Positions 1-37,339 of a DNA stretch of 38,148 bases are shown in pieces; within the stretch, counting starts at the first letter, position 1; every line of letters starts with the position of its first letter. Made by a program: the position numbers and the translations under genes. The stretch lies in assembly GCF_000003605.2 (NCBI RefSeq), contig NW_003113464.1, positions 57,109 to 95,256 of the forward strand. The letters run 5' to 3'. The DNA is from Saccoglossus kowalevskii. Lineage: Eukaryota; Hemichordata; Enteropneusta; Harrimaniidae. The notes below the pieces were generated by a model. It saw only the letters and a list, made by a program, of their open reading frames with translations. It was not told the origin of the DNA and ran no database searches.

Positions 1-406
1 ACCTATGTATGCAATATCAAAGCAATTGGACTTGCGATTTTTAACAAGAAGTTGAAAATATCACTTTTTACCAAAAATGACAAAAATATTCACCAAAATT
101 AGAGAATTTAAGATATCATCACAAAATGAACAAATCTGAAAGAGGTCCACTTGTGGTACCCATGTATGTAATATCAAAGCAATTGGACTTGTGGTTTTTA
201 ACAAGAAGAGAATTGAAGATATCATCATGAAATGAACAAATCTAAGAGAGGTCTACCCAAGGTACATATACAACAAGTATCAAAGCATTCAGGCTTGTAG
301 TTTTCAAGAAGAAGTCGAAAAAGTAAAACATTGACACGGACGACAGACGACGACGGACAATAACTCATATGATAAGCTTCGCTCAACAAAGTCGACAGCG
401 GAGCTA
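1..406 (-). mobile_element. Hairpin-headed dispersed repeat, copy 1 (partial, runs off left edge)
   Basis: Read on the minus strand, the element starts near 406 with a hairpin at 374-405 whose outer arms are AGCT and inner arms GCT/AGC. CTTAT and a GTCCGTCGTCGTCTGTCGTCC-like stretch follow. The body is built of monomers: the phrase CAAAGCAATTGGACTTG (plus strand) occurs near 18 and 173, and a diverged form near 283. The same family lies in the opposite orientation at 17941-18545. There is no coding capacity, and the transposition mechanism is unknown. The copy lies within intron 2 of the neighbouring TPM gene if that gene continues leftward. Confidence 0.75.
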
Positions 407-1310
407 AAAATAGGAATTCAAGTTCAAAATCAAATGATTTTATTTTTGCGTCAAATGTTTGGTCAACGCCTTAATTTTTTGCATTACATGAGATCTTTTG
501 GTATTATAGAATTACAATTTACTAAAATATCAAACAGGTATTAATATTTACAATAAAATATGCTTTTATTATTTGTTATTGCGCTACATACCAAATACAC
601 TTGTTATGCATTATACGTAAGATCAATTCCTAATCTTATCTTTTAGAAATGCATCGAATAATTAACGACAGCCCTCACTCTCGCTTCATCGAATTTAAAA
701 AAATACAAGGAATAAATTACCATACTTTTAACTATGTTTTAGGTATATTTCTTTTAAATTTGTTTCCAATGCATACTTTATTTTCTTACTGGTATTCCAA
801 AAATGAATTTTGTAATAATGATAGTCAAAATATATTAAAATTACCTACATGTATTTAGGATTATAACGCAGTTGTACTATAAATACTAATGGGATTAATG
901 GTATTAAGAATGGTTGCTTGGAAAGTTTAATTATTTACAATATGACGTGATCGGGAAGGTGGTTAGCTGTGTACTAAACATCGCTTCAGTTGAAATAATT
1001 TCAGTACAGAGTTGGTTAATTCACAAACTCGTCGTTCTGGGAATATATTTTGCATTAGAGAATATACCATCAAAAGGCACCCAAGCACATTATCTTGATT
1101 CACCAAGTTCACTGAAATCAAAAAGTATTCTACTTCACTTGAATGTTTCCCCAATGAGTATGTAAATCTGATCACAGGTTTACCTTGCATATTGTAAAGT
1201 CATCAACATCATCACTCACTCACTCTAGTTTCATTGTTGGCATAAATTTCCCACCCAAAGCTACAGGGTAGTAAATCCAAAATATTGTAGACATCAAAAT
1301 CATCACTCAC
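407..1310. other. Presumed intron 2 of TPM gene A; no exon recognised
   Basis: AT-rich sequence between the hairpin-headed repeat and exon 2 of the TPM gene. I searched by eye for the expected next exon, which should encode a stretch like WADYLL and CGNDIVIFVSRED as in the paralogue. I did not find it on the minus strand, so it is probably left of the window. The only structure is a decayed duplicate of the exon 2 end at about 1205-1289. Short open frames here have no recognisable content. Confidence 0.5.
1205..1289 (-). pseudogene. Vestigial tandem copy of the 3' end of TPM gene A exon 2
   Basis: This stretch repeats the sequence at about 1290-1372, including the end of exon 2 and its splice donor. 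Shared phrases on the plus strand are TTCATTGTTGGCATAA, CCAAAGCTACA and TAGTAAATCCA. In the reading frame of exon 2 the duplicate carries a TAG stop where the true exon reads on, so it cannot be a functional alternative exon. A GTGAGTGA donor-like sequence survives. It is best explained as a short tandem duplication that has decayed inside the intron. Confidence 0.65.
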
Positions 1311-3255
1311 CCTGGCTTCATTGTTGGCATAATTTTTGCAACCAAAGCTACACCAATAGTAAATCCATAATATTCCTCGTCTCCCAGTATGATTTCATCT
1401 GAACTGCATGCCCGGCACGTACATGCTGTTAACCGACGTATTTCATCCAGGTCCATTTCTATGCTATCAGCTATGTGGAAAAAATACAAAAAAAACATTA
1501 GCACATCAAGGAAACAGAGATCTGAATGGAACATTAAATAAAGCATGCACTACTAATAGATTAAATAATTTGTTCATAGTTAAATTAATAAGTGGATTAT
1601 GGTATTTCTTGAATCCTGATTATCAAAAATTCAACAATCTGGAAGCCCAAACATTATTTTAATCAATCGCTTTGCAATACAAATCAATGTGTGATTATTT
1701 ATCTGGATTATCAGTTATCCAAATTAATCCAGCTCAGCTCAAGATTTATGATTAATGAGACAGAGAAATTACTCAAGTCTTTTTGAGTATCTGGCAATAA
1801 TATCTAACGGGGGAATGCTTTTTGCCTCAGTGACTATCGTACTGGGACTATGTTTCAGCCACAATTACACTATCATAGCAGAACTATGTTTCAGCCACAA
1901 TTACACTATTGTAGCAGGACTATGTTTCAGCCACAGTTACACTATCATAGCAGGACTATGTTTCAGCCACAATTACACTATTGTAGCAGGACTATGTTTC
2001 AGCCACAGTTACACTATCATAGCAGGACTATGTTTCAGCCACAGTTACACTATCATAGCAGGACTATGTTTCAGCCACAGTTACACTATCATAGCAGGAC
2101 TATGTTTCAGCCACAATTACACTATTGTAGCAGGACTATGTTTCAGCCACAGTTACACTATTGTAGCAGGACTATGTTTCAGCCACAATTAAACTATTTT
2201 TATCTTTCCTTTTTTCTGGGCACAGTGTCTAATGTGGTGGTACTATCAACACCACAAACCCATTCTCTTAAGTTTTATAAATATTTAAAACCACATATTG
2301 CTACAGGCAGTGTAACCAGTGTACTGTAAAACATGTTGAAAAAGCGGCATGCAATTTTAGCGAATTGTGGTAAAATGACGTAATAGCGAAATGGTGATTT
2401 AGCGAATCAACGTTTGGTGGCCATTTTGAATTGATAATAAAGTCATTAGCAACATCTTGAATTAGCGAATCAGTTCTCTCACTAAATTCGCGAAAAAGAC
2501 ATATTTTACAGTATATATCATGTTTAACAAATACATCATTGTCATATCAACATTATTTAGCATTTAACTCCAGTATTTATTCCATTCATCAGTCTATGAC
2601 GTCATCATTACGTACATGGATATCACACAAACTTTACATCTCAGTGGTACCATTTCTACCTCCATGGTGGTACCTAGCATTTCTACTATAAAACCATCGA
2701 ATGATTGGTTGACTTTAAAATGTTACAACTACTATGCATGTATACGGTGGCTGCTACGTTAAAATATTAATTTTATAATGTAGTGTGAATGTATTGTAAC
2801 ACCTTGACGTATTTACTGATTTGGAGATGAAACCCCCAAAACCCAGTGTAAAACACTAGTTTTATGGATTCTCTTCAGCTGTTACGTAGCATGCAGCTTG
2901 TTATGTCTATTATTAATAAGGGTCAATACTAAGACAATGCACATAAAATGTGTTTTAAATTATGACACTGACCTTGTTCTGCTGTTAAAATCCCATTCGG
3001 GTCGCATATCCAGGAGATATTTCCTCTGCGACCACATTCCATGGACCCATCGAACGTCTGTGGATTAGGGTACATTTGTTTGATCCACCACTCGCGGTGC
3101 AGTACGCTATTATCTTGTCCGACCAATGCATTGGACGCAGAATAGAACGGATTCTGTTCGGTGTCGTTCAGTCTGGAATACACACTTGCCGCGTAAACGA
3201 CAATAATAATAATACACGGCGACACTACAGACTGCATGAAACAGGTATACTTCAT
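1311..3255 (-). CDS. TPM-domain secreted or membrane protein, gene A (exons 1-2 of a partial gene)
   Basis: Two exons are joined: 3255-2973 (94 codons plus 1 base, donor G|GTCAGTG) and 1470-1311 (acceptor CACATAG|CTG, donor GG|GTGAGTG). Later exons should lie left of the window. Residues 1-27 form a signal peptide with a run of isoleucine and valine. The TPM start follows: YPNPQ at 62-66, CGRRG at 74-78, a sequon at N79, and SWICDPNGIL at 81-90. Exon 2 continues with a helix (DLDEIRRL) and a C-x-C-x2-C cluster at 111-116, then the hydrophobic strand GFTIGVALVAKIM. The paralogue at 7600-12160 has the same order, exon phases and cysteines. TPM proteins include worm MOLO-1, a membrane-anchored modulator of levamisole-type acetylcholine receptors, and plastid TLP18.3/Psb32. 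Family membership is well supported; receptor modulation is only a possibility. The chosen ATG has G at -3. Confidence 0.85.
1845..2195. repeat. 36-bp minisatellite, 10 copies
   Basis: TATGTTTCAGCCACA recurs exactly every 36 bp at 1849, 1885, 1921 and so on to 2173. Units differ at two linked places (AATTACACTATTGT versus AGTTACACTATCAT), giving two unit types in a mixed order. Because 36 is a multiple of 3, two forward frames stay open and give 12-residue repeats. Neither has a conserved flank. The array lies in intron 1 of TPM gene A, antisense to it. Confidence 0.95.
2322..2513. mobile_element. MITE with CTGTAAAAYATG terminal inverted repeats and TA ends
   Basis: The left end TACTGTAAAACATG (2322-2335) is the inverse of the right end CATATTTTACAGTA (2500-2513), with one mismatch in 14. 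The outermost TA at each side fits a TA target duplication, as made by Tc1/mariner-like transposases. The 190-bp interior has repeated TTAGCGAAT phrases and no reading frame. It sits in intron 1 of TPM gene A. A relative with the same end sequence is at 29872-30068. Confidence 0.7.
2593..2626. repeat. 34-bp CRE-containing repeat, copy 1
   Basis: TCTATGACGTCATCATTACG begins a 34-base stretch that recurs at 5622-5655 with one difference. It contains the palindrome TGACGTCA, the consensus binding site of CREB/ATF factors. Copy 1 is in intron 1 of TPM gene A and copy 2 lies 5' of that gene. The flanks are unrelated, so this is a short shared block rather than part of a longer visible duplication. 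Confidence 0.6.
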
Positions 3256-6200
3256 GGCTCCGCTTTCACCTCAATACGTTGCCACTTTACTCTACGTTGT
3301 TCTATCTAACGTCAGCGATTCCTGTCCGAACTGACCTGTGGTAATAGTCGCCGACCACGATCCATCAGTACACGCATAGAAACAATTCTCAGTATGACAT
3401 CCACGACTAAAACAGCGACGATGTGATGAGTGTTGTATAAAACCGGTTAGCACGTGACCACATAATCTACATAAAGCAGACGGCCCCACGCAGGGCGTTC
3501 TTGAATCGGAAAATGAACATACTAGTAAACGTCACTACAATAACTATAGGGATTCGTTAATTGATTGCCTGGTAACACCTGGTATAAAATTGTGATTTTA
3601 AACAAATCATATTATGGATAAAAATATATATTTAGATTACTGAGACTGAGAACTTGATACTTGATCGTACTGCTACTTAAACTTTCGGAGGTCACTGGAT
3701 TCACTGGATACATTTTAATGAAAATTTCAGTCTGAAACAGCTATTGGAATACAACTATTTGTTCTTCATATCTAGTATATTATCATCGGGACATTATCCT
3801 GTGACGTTGTCAAAGCGCGCAATTCATGCTCATTTGGTTGCCATGGAAACCACGCAACATGAAATAACCATATTAATAACAAAGCATTTGACCCTTTGGG
3901 AATATAATGCATTTTATCTTCATGCACGCATGGGATGTGTGTACTCTGAGGTAAACAGGTTGACATTGCTTGATAATTATAGAGTTGACCATTAGAAACT
4001 TTGGGACCGCAGGCAGACGGAATTGGAAGTAAAATGCATAGCAAAAATCATGGAAAACAAAACCCAGGGTTCAAAAGAGAAAAATATTCCACAGAGTGTT
4101 AACAAATACAGCAAATTAATCATGAAAACAACATAAATTAGCACAAAACTAAGTGAAGAGGGAAATGCGCAGTGTTTCTGCCATCGATCCGCTAAGAGTT
4201 TCTAATGGTCTTCTCCTTAATTTATTAAAGTAGTACCTGTACCGTGACATTTGAATATATCTGCACGTGAGTTCATTTTGAAAGATTTGGAAATAAAACT
4301 AAACGTGCTTCTCACAACGGATTGGTGAATGGGTTATATCCAAATATAGAACAAATATCACAATTAAAATATTCGTTGTTAATATGATGAGGGCGGTAGT
4401 CGTCCGATGAAACAGCATAAACGCTTCCGTACAGACACGTGCCATCCATCATATTTGACTTATTTAGCTATTTCTCCGCTAGTTTACCAATTTGACGAAG
4501 AGAACGACGAAGTTTGACCAACAATTATTTCAGTTTACATATTGCTTGAATATCTTTTACAACTGCATACCAAACATACTGAATTGTTAACATTCTGGGT
4601 AAATTGAAATGATATCCCGAAAGTGATTTAACCATTTCCCAGTCTCTATGGCATAAAAGCAGTTCCTATGTGGCATACTCAGAGTCCAGTCGATAATTAA
4701 TTATGCTCGTGTAAAGCAATATAACAAACACACATATAGTATTTACTTTAATTCTGTTTGTATGAACAAGCCAAACACATGATATATCTAGGCTATACTA
4801 ATCTTTAAGCTGTCAGGCACATTTCGCGTTTTAGTATGCTAAACGTGCGCGCACGACCACATTGTACCGTGACATTTCCATAGAGTGATTTATTTTTAAA
4901 ATATTGAGCAAAAGTCATGTTACGTGATAGTATTTTGCATATTTCGCATTATGACATGTTTGACTTTCGAATATATATTGATAATCTTTACCAAACCTTT
5001 CTCTGAAAATGTCTGTTTTTTCATTTTTTATGATTTTGACAGAATTAAAAACCCAATTTCTTATCGGACATACCCCATAGGCGCACTCAAACCTTCCATG
5101 GATACATTCTCAACCTCACTACTTACAACAAGACGTTACCCTGGATGTAAATGCCACATTTGGGATCACGCAACCATTAAATAATAATTTGATATTTCAT
5201 CGAGATAAAAACAATATAGGATGATTTATTGTAAAATAAAAACGTACTTTTGGCAGCAAACATGTCAGTATTCGTTCGATAATATAATTTATCATATATC
5301 TTGCATTACCCAGTCTCGTAATGCTATGAGAAACCTGCTGAGGAAGTCTTTTTAAAACATCGTTTATATTAGCCGTATAAACACTGAACAAGTAACATGG
5401 GACCCGCTTGTGAAATCAGCAAGACATATATTTGCTGTTACATTGATGATCACCGAGCTCATTTCCACTTGTTTGATGAATTTCAGTTAGTACAGCCAAC
5501 ATGACATAATTTGCACCCAGGAATTTGCATAATTACTAGTAAGTAAACAAATGACACAATTGTTTTAATTACATGATATTCGTTAGATGAAAGGTATGTA
5601 ATCTGAAATAAAATCACAGAATCTATGACGTCATCATTACGTACATTGATATCACTATATTCAGGCCCAACGTTTTAGAAATCAGAATACAGCTTGCACC
5701 TCAATGTAGAACTGAAAACAGATTTAAAATTGAGATATGTGCATATTATTATTAGCACAAATCACATGTGCATAATTATCATGTGTGTGGGTGCAATCAA
5801 TAATATTAGCACAATAGTGTATAAGCTTATGAAGGTAAATTATGACCCGTGTGCAATGCTTGTTAAAAGTTAGCAATATCGATAATGTTCGTTATCAAAT
5901 TCAGAACGAGAAAAAAAAACAATGTTGCCATTCTTCTGTGACCCCTCATGACCCTATGAAATCCAAGATGGCGTCCAAGATAGCCGTATAATCTATACAT
6001 TCCCATATATCTGCCAACCCCTTGATATAATATAGATTAAAGCATCAAATATGAGTTATTAAGATCAAAGATTATATAAATATACAATTCAGTTTGCATA
6101 ATGATATTTGGCATAAATACAAACTATATACTGTGTACAACTAACTACACAGTGTATGTATTTGCCCGTGAGCTACATCATGTAGCCACTCATTCGTAAA

Positions 6201-17940: not shown

Positions 17941-18545
17941 AGCTCATATTACTGATTGTCCGTCGTCGGCGTCAACTTTACAATTTCAACTTCTTCTATG
18001 CAAGTCAGAATGTTTTCAAATTTGATATGCAAGTACCTTGGATGGTTCTTTCTCAGATTTGTTCATTTCATGTCAAAATCTCAAATTATCTATTTTTGGT
18101 GAATATTTTTGTCATTTTTGGTAAAAAGTGATATTTTCGACTTCTTGTAAAAAACCTCAAGTCCGATTACTTTGGTATTACATATATAGGTACTATATGT
18201 GGATCTCTCTCAGATTTGTTCATTTGGACGTTATCTTTAATTATCTAATTTTGGTGAATATTTTTGGCACTTTTGGTAAAAAGCGATATTTTCAATTTCT
18301 TGTTAAAAACTGCAAGTCCAATTGCTTTGATATAATACAAATATGTACTACATGTGGACCTCTCAGATTTGTTAATTCCGTGGTGATATCTTCAATTATC
18401 TAATTTTGATGATTTTTGGTGAAAAGTGATATTTTTGAATTCTTGTTGAAAACAGCAAGTCCGATTGCTTAGATACTATACATAGCAATGTGCATTGCTA
18501 ACAGCGGAGCTATCTCAGCCGATTGGCTGCTTGTTCTATATGAGA
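17941..18545 (+). mobile_element. Hairpin-headed dispersed repeat, copy 2 (head deleted)
   Basis: Same family as 1-406 but in plus orientation. It starts TTTTAGCTCATATTACTG and runs into TTGTCCGTCGTCGG. Compared with copy 1, the bases between the two AGCT arms of the head hairpin are missing. The body carries three to four monomers of about 155 bp: CTCAGATTTGTT recurs near 18052, 18209 and 18363, and CAAGTCCRATTRCTT near 18150, 18314 and 18460. Open frames in it follow the monomer period and have no recognisable domain. Confidence 0.75.
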
Positions 18546-20515: not shown

Positions 20516-21006
20516 GTGTGCATTAATTAGGTAATTAATATGCATGGATTTCAACTCTGAAGTAATCAGATTAGTGTATTATCCAAAAGCACTTATTTAC
20601 CAAGTGTCATTGAAATTTGATGAGTGGTACCCAAAATATTAAGCTGCCAAAAATGGCAATGTTATCTTAAGTTTATTATAGTAGCTACAGAGGGGGGGGG
20701 GGTTGCAATTAGGTTATTCTTCACTGGAACGCCATTTTCCGTTCACTGCAAAATCTTGTGTCATGTCTGTGATCGGACATAAAAAAACAGAACAAACAAA
20801 ATTCATGAAAGCACTTTTTGGGGCTTATTAATGTGCTGTACACATTTGATGAGGGCAATTTAGATGAAAAGATATGAAACATCAACATTTAACTATTAAA
20901 AAAAAAATTTAAGTTCAAAATCAATTTTTTTGTGGCAGATGTTTCAGACATTAAAAATTAAAATCTGATTTAGGTATAGGCTCCAATATTTTTTTATTAA
21001 GTTTTT

Positions 21007-21219
21007 AGTCCCTGTTCGGACAAAGTCCGAAAGCGAGGACTTATAATCCGATCTCTTTGCGTCCATCCATGCGTCCGGGGTGATATTTCAGAATCCTTCA
21101 GACCGATTCCATTCATTCTTTGCATGTGTCTAGTACTTTATGTGGGACATATGCACATGTGGTGGTTTAGCGATTCGATTCAAAATGGCCGACTGGCAGC
21201 CATCTTGTTTTTTGAAAAT
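21007..21219 (+). mobile_element. Hairpin-headed dispersed repeat, copy 3 (interrupted by the DIRS element)
   Basis: The head hairpin at 21007-21041 pairs AGTCC with GGACT outside and TTCGGAC with GTCCGAA inside around an AAA loop. CTTATA and a GCGTCCATCCATGCGTCCGG stretch follow. Further on, AAAATGGCC and GGCAGCCATCTT face each other as a small inverted repeat. The element stops where the DIRS end begins, so its 3' part may lie beyond 27422. No coding capacity is visible. Confidence 0.6.
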
Positions 21220-21513: not shown

Positions 21514-22043
21514 NNNNNNNNNNNNNNNNNNNNNNNNNNNNNNNNNNNNNNNNNNNNNNNNNNNNNNNNNNNNNNNNNNNNNNNNNNNNNNNNNNNNNNN
21601 NNNNNNNNNNNNNNNNNNNNNNNNNNNNNNNNNNNNNNNNNNNNNNNNNNNNNNNNNNNNNNNNNNNNNNNNNNNNNNNNNNNNNNNNNNNNNNNNNNNN
21701 NNNNNNNNNNNNNNNNNNNNNNNNNNNNNNNNNNNNNNNNNNNNNNNNNNNNNNNNNNNNNNNNNNNNNNNNNNNNNNNNNNNNNNNNNNNNNNNNNNNN
21801 NNNNNNNNNNNNNNNNNNNNNNNNNNNNNNNNNNNNNNNNNNNNNNNNNNNNNNNNNNNNNNNNNNNNNNNNNNNNNNNNNNNNNNNNNNNNNNNNNNNN
21901 NNNNNNNNNNNNNNNNNNNNNNNNNNNNNNNNNNNNNNNNNNNNNNNNNNNNNNNNNNNNNNNNNNNNNNNNNNNNNNNNNNNNNNNNNNNNNNNNNNNN
22001 NNNNNNNNNNNNNNNNNNNNNNNNNNNNNNNNNNNNNNNNNNN
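21514..22043. other. Assembly gap (530 N)
   Basis: An unbroken run of N. The sequence before it (21290-21510) and after it (22044-22275) is the same DIRS terminal repeat in the same orientation. The gap therefore lies between two copies of one repeat, a classic place for mis-assembly. Confidence 0.99.
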
Positions 22044-22787: not shown

Positions 22788-23324
22788 TCAATAGATTGGG
22801 TGTTTCTTAGGTAGCAATCGTCTCTGCAAGGTCTGTGTTGAAGAGGATAATGTATTATAGACCTCCAGTACAGTCGCAGTAATACACCTGGAGATGGAAG
22901 TCAGGGAGGCCAGCTTATCCTGTTTACAAGGGCCGTAACACAAAAACATGTGTTTGGTTTCCCGTCTGGAAAACCTGGTATGGTTCTCATAACAACTCAA
23001 TGCTCGGACCGGGCAGAGAAGCAATTCCTCCTGATCCTCCGGACCGACAATATTTGACAGTTGGGGTATGACGATCGGTTGAGGATCGTGTCCTGGGATT
23101 TGGTTCTTGGTGAAAAACCCAATTTGTGTCTTTAGTACAACTTGATCGTCCATAAAGGCGACGCAACCTTTTGCGAAGGACAGTGCGTCTAGCTCTGACC
23201 GGCGCCTACCCGAGGTGAGGGCCAGTAGGAAGACTGTTTTCCAAGTCAAAAACTTGAGTGGTGCTGAAGAGAGGAGCTCGAAAGGTGGTCTGCCTAGGGC
23301 TGCTAAAACAACCGACAGATCCAA
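22788..23324 (-). pseudogene. DIRS tyrosine recombinase remnant
   Basis: A 178-codon open frame holds the N-terminal and middle part of the catalytic domain. LTWKTVFLLALTSGRRRSEL is the block with the first catalytic arginine. It is followed by FFTKNQIPGHDPQPIVIPQL, CPVRALSCYENHT and MFLCYGPCKQ, which are typical of DIRS recombinases. The frame ends at KKHPIY before a recognisable H-x-x-R and catalytic tyrosine block. Downstream sequence to about 22600 has stops in all frames, so the C-terminal catalytic part is lost or scrambled. The enzyme would have joined the circular DNA intermediate to the target. Confidence 0.85.
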
Positions 23325-23542
23325 ATTAGGCGGTTCTCTTGTACGGGTTCTCGGCCTCTGATTATGGAAAGCAGTTAAGTCTCTTAATAATAGGCCAATC
23401 GGCTAGACTTGACCCCAAAGAGTTCTCTACGGCGGGGGACAAGGCTGACCTGTAGCCAACGATCGCTGCGTAAGACAAACCTACTTCGTCAAACAAGTGG
23501 ACAAAGAAGTCTGCTACCTGGCCGATAGAGGGATGGCATGGA

Positions 23543-24842
23543 TCAATCTTCCACTACACCAATTAGTGTGTACTCGCCATTTCGAGTTGTAGGCAGCGTT
23601 GGTGGAATCCCTGTTCGCCCTGGCCAGGATGTTGACAGCCCGCTTAGATAGACTTTCGTCTGTGTGAGTTTACTGAGAGCCTCCATACGTGTAAGTGGTT
23701 CACTGCTGGGCTTGCTTGCTGGCAGACCACCACTGTGTTGTCTGTGTGGAGCAGGACTCTGTGGTCTCGAACTTCGGGTAGAAAGCGTACTAGTGCTAGG
23801 CGCACTGCTTTCAGCTTGAGCCAGCTGATATGGTGGTCTGAAACCCACTGCGGGGGCCATATTCCTTGGGCATGTCTGTCCAATAGATGCGCTCCCCACC
23901 CTTGGAGGGAGGCGTCTGTTACCAGAGTCATAGCTGTGACGAGTGGGTCCAAGGGGACCCCCTGCCCGAGGTTGGTCAGTGACAACCACCAGGACAGGGT
24001 TTCCTTCGCTTGGTCCGGGATCAATACTCGCCTGTCTAGTTCCCGTAGGTGAGCTTGGTGTTCCAATAACGAGCATTGGACTGGGCGGCTGCGTAGAGTG
24101 GCCTGGGGAACTACCCTTCGAACGGAGGTCATCATTAGGAGGTCGCATTAGTTCGCGGAGGAACACTGAGGGAACGGTGACTAGGCGTTCTGCTAGGTTG
24201 CTTAGCGCTAGGCAACGTGCTTGAGATGGGCGAACCAGGCCTACCTCAGTGTCAAACTCCATGCCCAGAAACACCAACTGTTGAGTCGAGTCGGGTCGGG
24301 TCGGGATGGGACTTTTTCTGATTTACTAGGAAGCCCAACTGGTAGAGTAAACCAGTAAACTGCGTTAGCCTTACTTGTCTGGCTAATAACCCTTGTCTGG
24401 GTTGTGTAACAACCAGTCATCTAGGTACGGATTGATGTGTACCGACATTTGGTGGAGCAGCAGTACTACCTGTTTTATCACTCTGGTGAACACGTAGGGC
24501 GCTGTTTAGTCTGCTTAGGTTCAGAACCGGACGCCAGCCGCCTGTAGCTTTGGGTACTACAAATACATTTGAGTAGAAGCCCAGACTTAGCGCCGGCTGA
24601 ACTATTCTGTGTATGGCACCTTTTCTTAGCAAACTGTCTACTTCCTGTCTGATTGCTTCCGCCTTGCGGGGCTCCCCTGGCAGTGCCCGAGGGGGGGGGG
24701 GTGCACTGACAGGGGCAGTGGAGATGTCAGTGGTATTCTGTAACCGAGTGTCACCACCTGGAGTGTCCAGGGATCGGTTACCCGCTGCCTCCAAGCCGGA
24801 ATTCACCGGCGCAATCTGCGTGCAACAGGCATCTGTGGCCAT
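23543..24842 (-). pseudogene. DIRS reverse transcriptase / RNase H remnant
   Basis: The RT start is recognisable in 24842-24520: RKGAIHRIV, then GFYSNVFVVPKATGGWRPVL and NLSRLNS. It joins directly, in another frame, to YVFTRVIKQVVLLLHQMS and HINPYLDDWLLHNPDKGY. The catalytic YLDD is at 24416-24427. The block between, which carries the first catalytic aspartate motif in relatives, is missing. GMEFDTEVGLVRPSQARCLAL follows. RNase H appears at 24135-23644: VTDASLQGWGAHL, HHISWLKLKAVRLAL and LLHTDNTVVV. The expected catalytic glutamate of the second block appears as lysine (WLKLKA). Several frameshifts and stops confirm a dead copy. Confidence 0.9.
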
Positions 24843-30430: not shown

Positions 30431-35884
<5,454 letters not shown>

Positions 35885-36272: not shown

Positions 36273-36739
36273 GTAAATTGCAACATAGATTTAAAGTATC
36301 TGTTTACCTCCATCATAACAAATTATTAATATGGTGACAACAATCACGCACCTCTAATTAGAACTTAGTGCGCATAAACCTAAAAATACATTTATTGACA
36401 GTGATAGAGGGACTATGATTTATTGTATGTTAATAGAGCATTTAAATATGACTTATTTTGACAGGAGACATTTGGAGAGGTAGCAAAGTACATAAACCAT
36501 ATTTATATGTAAATGAGATAGGTGTGTCTCGGGGTCAGCCCTATATTCCTTGGTATCTAGGACATTTTCCTTGGTACTAAGTTCCCTCAAATTGTTTACT
36601 GTAAAATACTTTATTGAAGCTGGAATTAATTTTCGCTGAAAAAAAACATCTTAGGTGTTTTGTATGGAATTTATTTTTCCTGATTTTTTAGAAGTTGAAT
36701 GTAAAATATAGAAAAAAAGGTATATTCGCTGGATTTTTT
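36273..36739 (+). other. Presumed intron 1 of the divergent gene, first part
   Basis: AT-rich sequence after the splice donor. A TACTGTAAAATAC end motif at about 36599 resembles the terminal sequence of the two TA-flanked MITEs in this window, but no partner end is visible. Nothing else is recognised. Confidence 0.5.
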
Positions 36740-37140
36740 AGCCTTCGCAGACGAAGTCTGCCGAAGGCTTATAGATTGGGTTCTGTCCGTCCGTCTGTTC
36801 GTCTGTCTTTTACCTCTTATAACTTTGATATGCTCTGTCCAATTTTTTTCAAAGTTGGTGCAAATGTAATTCTCAATGCCATACATATGCACGCCAAGTA
36901 TTTTTTTTATTCGCCAAAGTTTCATTGTGTTTTTCTGTGATTTTCAACATTTTACTAGTACAAGTGTCGAAATTTGCCGGAAAAATCCGAGTTTTAACGA
37001 CATCTCGCAAGAGAACTGGCATACCGTATTGCGCATGCGCCAGTCTAACCGCTAAGGAAATCGCCGTCTATTTCGTCAGAGGATATTGTATTCCGGGACT
37101 GTATCTTTCTTTGCACAAGGCTTACATAGATTAAATTCTA
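36740..37140 (+). mobile_element. Hairpin-headed dispersed repeat, copy 4
   Basis: The head hairpin at 36740-36769 is nearly perfect: AGCCTTCG-CAGAC, loop GAA, then GTCTG-CCGAAGGCT. CTTATAGATTGGG and TCTGTCCGTCCGTCTGTTCG follow. The downstream body (CTCTTATAACTTTGATATGC and so on) has no recognisable protein; the open frames crossing it are not supported. The 3' boundary is a guess. Confidence 0.65.
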
Positions 37141-37339
37141 TCTCAAAGGTAAGAAACTGTGCTTATGGTATTTATTATGAACTTTGATTTATCCTTTTGT
37201 GTCCTGACTTTAATGAGAAACTTGCGATCGCACAGTGTCACACTTTGCCAGAAAAACAGTCCTGCTATTATGGGATAACCAGGCAAATATATATGGGATA
37301 ACCAGGCAAACCATCATTTTGAAACATCACAGCTATTAC

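Follow-up and report, generated by a model that had tools for sequence, protein, structure and literature searches.

Three hairpins in the 38,148-nucleotide stretch of Saccoglossus kowalevskii DNA analysed here (the window) stand at the head of dispersed repeats, and their arms differ from one hairpin to the next. This raises the question of what such heads are and what keeps their arms matched. A sequence-only reading had taken the differences as compensatory changes that mark selection on a folded strand, either RNA or single-stranded DNA, and had proposed a replication origin or a signal by which a class of non-autonomous mobile elements is recognised. By the anatomy of their ends, the three heads are very probably the 5' ends of HINEs, a kind of non-autonomous rolling-circle transposon of the Helentron (Helitron2) type, for which we distinguish families A, B, and C.

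Hairpin heads in the window and in the genome

The heads were confirmed where they had been read, C and B on the plus strand and A on the minus strand (Table 1), and all three are followed by TAT and then by a run of the GTCC/GTCGTC type. The earlier description of the arms as always paired was too strong: the window B and A heads carry non-pairs. The outer arm of the window B head shows one non-pair and two G-T steps relative to the family form AGTCCCCGTT/AACGGGGACT, and the arms of the window A head contain one non-pair (AGCTCCGCT/AGCGAAGCT). Each head was folded as a single strand with DNA parameters and compared with 200 dinucleotide shuffles. None of the shuffles was as good as the C head (z -5.12, 0/200) or the B head (z -3.35, 0/200); for the A head, 35/200 were as good (z -0.84), and this head alone is not beyond chance. 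Judged from other genomic copies, it is a worn member of its family, as L056, L057, and L058 carry AGCTCCGCT...AGCGGAGCT with full pairing over nine positions.

The genome search covered a 572-Mb assembly of 4830 contigs. The pattern TTAGY..RCTTAT..GTCCGTC gave 933+1230 = 2163 matches, a figure that includes overlapping double matches (2 of the 25 heads given in letters were counted twice), against 19+18 = 37 for the reversed control. Patterns with AGA and AGG arms, whose fixed parts were slightly different, were not above the control (0 vs 3+2; 3+4 vs 4+1). Family B was represented by at least 84 matches (40 scored of 1938 first-look candidates) and family A by at least 74 (40 scored of 3348 candidates), with repeats about 157 bp apart, while 41 matches in the genome belonged to family C.

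Table 1. Features of the probable HINE-type elements in the window
Feature	Positions	Strand	Remarks
Family C 5' head	36740..36769	+	subTIR AGCCTTCGC, inner stem CAGAC-GAA-GTCTG, IR CCGAAGGCT; preceded by TTTTTT; z -5.12
GTCC/GTCT microsatellite, family C	36785..36807	+	unit number varies among copies
Family C HINE, 5' part	36735..37268	+	no C-type 3' end in the window
Family B 5' head, mutated copy	21007..21041	+	family form AGTCCCCGTT CGGAC GAA GTCCG AAAACGGGGACT; z -3.35
GTCC-type microsatellite, family B	21060..21077	+	
Family B HINE	21005..21219	+	similarity to other copies stops ~214 bp past head
Family A 5' head, decayed copy	375..405	-	family form AGCTCCGCTGT...AGCGGAGCT; z -0.84, not significant alone
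GTCCGTCGTC microsatellite, family A	335..358	-	
Family A HINE	1..412	-	central repeats spaced ~157 bp; cut by window start
Second family A-type HINE	17941..18535	+	head hairpin missing: TTTTAGCT directly followed by CATATTACTG
3' subTIR, family A	18500..18511	+	AACAGCGGAGCT, includes reverse complement of 5' arm AGCTCCGCTGT
3' palindrome, family A	18516..18535	+	CAGCC-GATT-GGCTG, then terminal CTTGTT

The second A-type HINE lacks, beside AGCT, the hairpin and the three bases after it in comparison with L058, and its 3' end is well kept. One further genomic match showed the precise loss of the A head (control 0). These losses fit a deletion across an extruded DNA hairpin, two cases being few; slippage was also considered, and deletion of the head hairpin is rare.

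Other features of the window were observed beside these elements. Near the truncated B HINE, open reading frames occur at 22788-24842 on the minus strand, with a run of N at 21514-22043. We take these frames, by eye, to resemble a DIRS-like element; a Pfam scan of two of these ORFs gave no match. Additionally, host-gene-like exons were found on the minus strand at 34794-35525 (2OG-Fe(II) oxygenase, 31.3 bits, cut-off 31.2) and at 2929-3255 (a MOLO1 match below the cut-off, 25.7 against 27).

Family edges and class of the elements

Alignment of the B copies revealed a sharply defined 5' edge, at TTWTT-AG. In 28/28 oriented copies the similarity sets in at the head: past the head 27/27 other copies align, and in the preceding 50 bp a mean of 0-2 of 27 do so. 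These 28 copies are those of 30 loci with the exact orientation motif; L026 and L032, which lack the motif, were excluded. The 5' flanks are T-rich: among 23 copies, T occupies position -5 in 22, position -4 in 20, and positions -2 and -1 in 23, and position -3 is A in 12, T in 10, and G in 1. These T-rich 5' borders agree with insertion into T-rich DNA, and the conserved 3' ends that the sequence-only reading had suggested looking for were found in all families as a subTIR, a palindrome, and TTGT.

At the 3' side, the alignment edge of family B falls at ...GTGTCATTTTCAATGACTTGTT in 18/28 copies, the other 10/28 stopping elsewhere. This end often comes after ACGGGGACT, and in most cases a form of AACGGGGACT stands before it. 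A C-type 3' end was not found within the window; three were found elsewhere in the genome, as CTAGCGAAGGCTATGTCATTCATGACTTGTA in L054, CTAGCGAAGGCAGTGTCATTCATGACTTGTT in L051, and a similar one in L053, and in these three copies the end is a form of CTAGCGAAGGCTATGTCATTCATGACTTGT with T or A after it. The A ends are forms of AACAGCGGAGCTATCTCAGCC(4 nt)GGCTGCTTGTT. In L021, L047, and the window copy, AACAGCGGAGCTATCTCAGCC..GGCTG is followed by CTTGTT or a near form, and the end is more changed in L030, L057, and L058, the last two departing more in the 3' palindrome than other A copies. The final T of TTGTT is missing in some copies (L017 of family B, L053 and L054 of family C, and L047 of family A), so that the exact 3' border is uncertain.

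Two observations accompany these edges. In L047, at about 136-201, an A-family 3' end directly abuts a C-family head (GGCTGCTTGTC then AGCCTTCG), as though the T-rich border of C had served as the insertion site of A. Furthermore, a pattern with GYT, which excludes family B, gave 7 genome matches (control 0) with a B-type palindrome and a subTIR ending in GCT; these places are possibly further families with the same 3' end.

The three families share one order, in which each carries its own arm as the 5' arm, the IR, and the 3' subTIR, followed by a palindrome and a near-common end. A, B, and C all contain a 5' subTIR with a complementary IR close by (arms of about 9-12 nt), a short microsatellite of the GTCC/GTCY type after the 5' IR, and, close to the 3' end, a 3' subTIR with a palindrome after it. 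The bodies are family-specific, with tandem repeats in A. Canonical Helitrons (Helitron1) are defined by 5'-TC, CTRR-3', and a hairpin 10-12 nt before the 3' end in the cited part of PMC5148889, and the elements described here instead have TTAG... and ...TTGT(T). From these termini and borders, we assign the families to HINE, a known class of which they are possibly new members. The elements are abundant and apparently gene-less. Matching head arms are a known hallmark of the Helentron/HINE class, and the finding is real and mostly ordinary. The proposal of a recognition signal belonging to a non-autonomous mobile element class was borne out, the heads being HINE 5' ends, and a replication-origin role is plausible.

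Published descriptions of related elements, cited here in part, show the same anatomy, and Pearl is listed with DINE-1 and Cg_HINE among the non-autonomous Helentrons sharing it. The HINE anatomy described for Cg_HINE of the Pacific oyster includes GTCY/GTCC microsatellites, and the elements lie at oligo-T sites (Vojvoda Zeljko et al. 2020, PMC7492417). Like the families here, Cg_HINE has a 5' subTIR with a complementary IR, a 3' subTIR with a palindrome, T-rich sites, a GTCY/GTCC/GTCK microsatellite, and central satellite-like repeats; the likeness to the 11 Cg_HINE elements is one of described anatomy (PMC7492417). DINE-1/HINE likewise comprise subTIRs, an IR (in DINE-1), a microsatellite, and a 3' stem loop (Thomas et al. 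2014, PMC4067079). Their insertion at TT and their families differing in subTIR (PMC4067079) have counterparts here in T-rich borders and in a subTIR that differs by family. In Fusarium, the Helitron2 elements FoHeli1 and FoHeli2 have the short 5' heads AGCC-GAA-GGCT and AGTCC-GAA-GGACT, respectively (PMC5148889). The C and B heads begin and end like these, with the GAA loop present in the C and B family forms, and FoHeli1/FoHeli2 also carry an inverted repeat near the 3' end. They differ in having shorter heads, in being autonomous, and in ending in ATATTTT, and the cited portion of that paper makes no mention of a GTCY tract (PMC5148889).

Arm matching at three sites and rival explanations

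Arm matching was assessed in 23 copies in which both ends are present (2 A, 18 B, and 3 C). These were picked by similarity to arm-containing templates, so the counts are conditioned on template choice, and only the B ends and the C copy L051 rest on motif-blind alignment edges. Headless entries were left out of the 23-copy counts, as were three C hits: L046 has a decayed end, and L008 and L045 represent one locus whose end is B-like. The IR of L053, which has an indel in the head, was left out of the arm-match and permutation counts. The 5' arm matched its own 3' subTIR at a mean of 8.04/9 positions, compared with 7.93/9 for the 3' subTIR of same-family copies (314 comparisons) and 4.35/9 for that of different families (190 comparisons). 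In 20/23 copies, the final 60 bp contained the reverse complement of the own arm with no more than one mismatch, and in 4/23 the match was exact. The same one-mismatch test on 20,000 random 60-bp segments of the analysed DNA, elements included, gave 29 hits for the A arm, 275 for B, and 91 for C.

Within families, compensation was not detected. Permutation of the 18 B copies gave p 0.475 for the 5' arm against its own 3' subTIR and p 1.0 for the 5' arm against its own IR, and the test on head arms gave p 1.0 for A (19 heads) and p 0.44 for B (6 heads). Within-family compensation in A and B was accordingly rejected (p 0.44 to 1.0). The sequence-only reading had named a lack of covariation in a family-wide alignment as evidence against itself, and inside the families covariation is indeed absent by this test. 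Its claim of compensatory change through selection on structure fails within the families and stands only as a difference between the three of them. The compensatory changes are differences between master families, and within families the arms decay independently. Three families do not suffice for a formal covariation test, and the differences between them agree with selection on the masters and just as well with one arm kept at three sites. Because the 3' end holds a third copy that the arms match as well, a binding site common to them accounts for the coupling no less well than a folded strand.

Other origins of the heads were weighed against the HINE assignment. The elements could be MITEs belonging to a cut-and-paste (DDE) transposon, with terminal inverted repeats that are palindromic by chance, and the arm is indeed present in inverted form at both ends. 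MITEs of this type have symmetric terminal inverted repeats with a target-site duplication, and the ends here are asymmetric, the 5' arm lying at the very edge and the 3' arm about 20 bp inside, followed by the palindrome and TTGT. DINE-1 was itself formerly called a MITE (PMC2374699, cited in part), but the GTCY tract and T-rich borders of A, B, and C are Helentron traits in the cited parts of PMC4067079 and PMC7492417, and we regard a MITE origin as very improbable.

RNA structures selected for their folding, for example the end of a retroposon or a regulatory RNA, would account for two of the three window heads folding better than all shuffles, a result obtained with DNA parameters. A search of the window against Rfam gave no match at the gathering threshold, compensation is absent within families, and the third arm copy at the far 3' end together with the fixed T-rich borders fits a DNA element; RNA as the selected structure, one of the two options of the sequence-only reading, is slightly less credible still than a MITE. 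That the heads are unrelated chance inverted repeats agrees with the window A head taken alone, which is no better than its shuffles (z -0.84). This explanation, which the earlier reading had itself set out, is refuted by the 2163 genome matches against 37 in the control and by an anatomy common to both ends of three families, and its probability is negligible.

Helentron machinery and a tentative joint-stem switch

A HINE assignment directs attention to autonomous Helentrons in the same genome. A partner search with PF14214 (Helitron_like_N) gave 8 genome matches. One locus, L055, encodes at 1198-6128 on the minus strand Helitron_like_N, PIF1, and Exo_endo_phos, in that order; its long open frames measure 961, 497, and 215 aa. 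By these predicted domains L055 is a Helentron, and its order of Rep, PIF1 helicase, and endonuclease is as described for Helentrons in the cited part of PMC4067079. Hairpin and inverted-repeat scans of the 9.5 kb of L055 yielded no convincing pair of ends. The motif scan of the same locus found no A or C arm and one lone B-like arm, AGTCCCTGTT, which lies upstream of Rep without TTAG before it and without a partner arm. The second Rep contig (C238; L059 and L060, 5.4 kb of 11.3 kb) showed no A/B/C-type ends. The sequence-only reading had called for a related autonomous element; the genome contains a Helentron-type gene set, but neither L055 nor L059/L060 yielded an autonomous element with A, B, or C termini. 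Additionally, the Rep, helicase, and endonuclease of L055 showed no similarity (E up to 0.01) to L001-L054 or the window. For DINE-1/HINE, unlike for the families here, autonomous partners were matched (PMC4067079, cited in part).

We propose that a Helentron Rep/helicase acting in trans would recognise the family-specific arm at both ends, nick at the T-rich borders, and stop at the 3' palindrome, the strand then being inserted at TT. A takeover by an autonomous master whose arm differs, alike at the 5' arm, the IR, and the 3' subTIR, would give rise to a new family, and every inserted copy may afterwards decay freely.

A more speculative and on balance unlikely addition is a structural switch, in which one arm serves two mutually exclusive stems. 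In the integrated copy, the 5' arm would pair with the IR to form the head hairpin. Once the ends are joined in a circle, it would pair with the 3' subTIR and enclose the 3' palindrome, and the TTGT|TT joint would stay single-stranded in the manner of a rolling-circle origin. When joints were modelled with the 5' arm alone, at least 6 pairs formed across the joint in 23/23 copies, compared with 74/192 joints of mismatched families, and at least 4 pairs formed inside the 3' end (its palindrome) in 21/23 copies. With the whole head included, the joint stem was kept in the lowest-energy fold in only 5/23 copies. Joined ends of FoHeli1 were detected by PCR, suggesting a circle (PMC5148889, cited in part). 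Among the literature matches listed for Helentron, Helitron2, or HINE hairpins, subTIRs, circles, and junctions, the text returned held no statement of such a switch, and a search by sequence strings gave nothing relevant among the matches listed. If the switch were true, a change of master would have to alter three sites at once, and the coupling between families would thereby be explained.

Roughly two thousand pattern matches in the genome are accounted for by one known class, and the apparent covariation is a between-family signature common to the 5' arm, the IR, and the 3' subTIR. In the cited part of their paper, the oyster authors report failing to pair HINE families with an autonomous Helentron (PMC7492417). 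The three-site signature offers a handle for matching HINE families to such an element.
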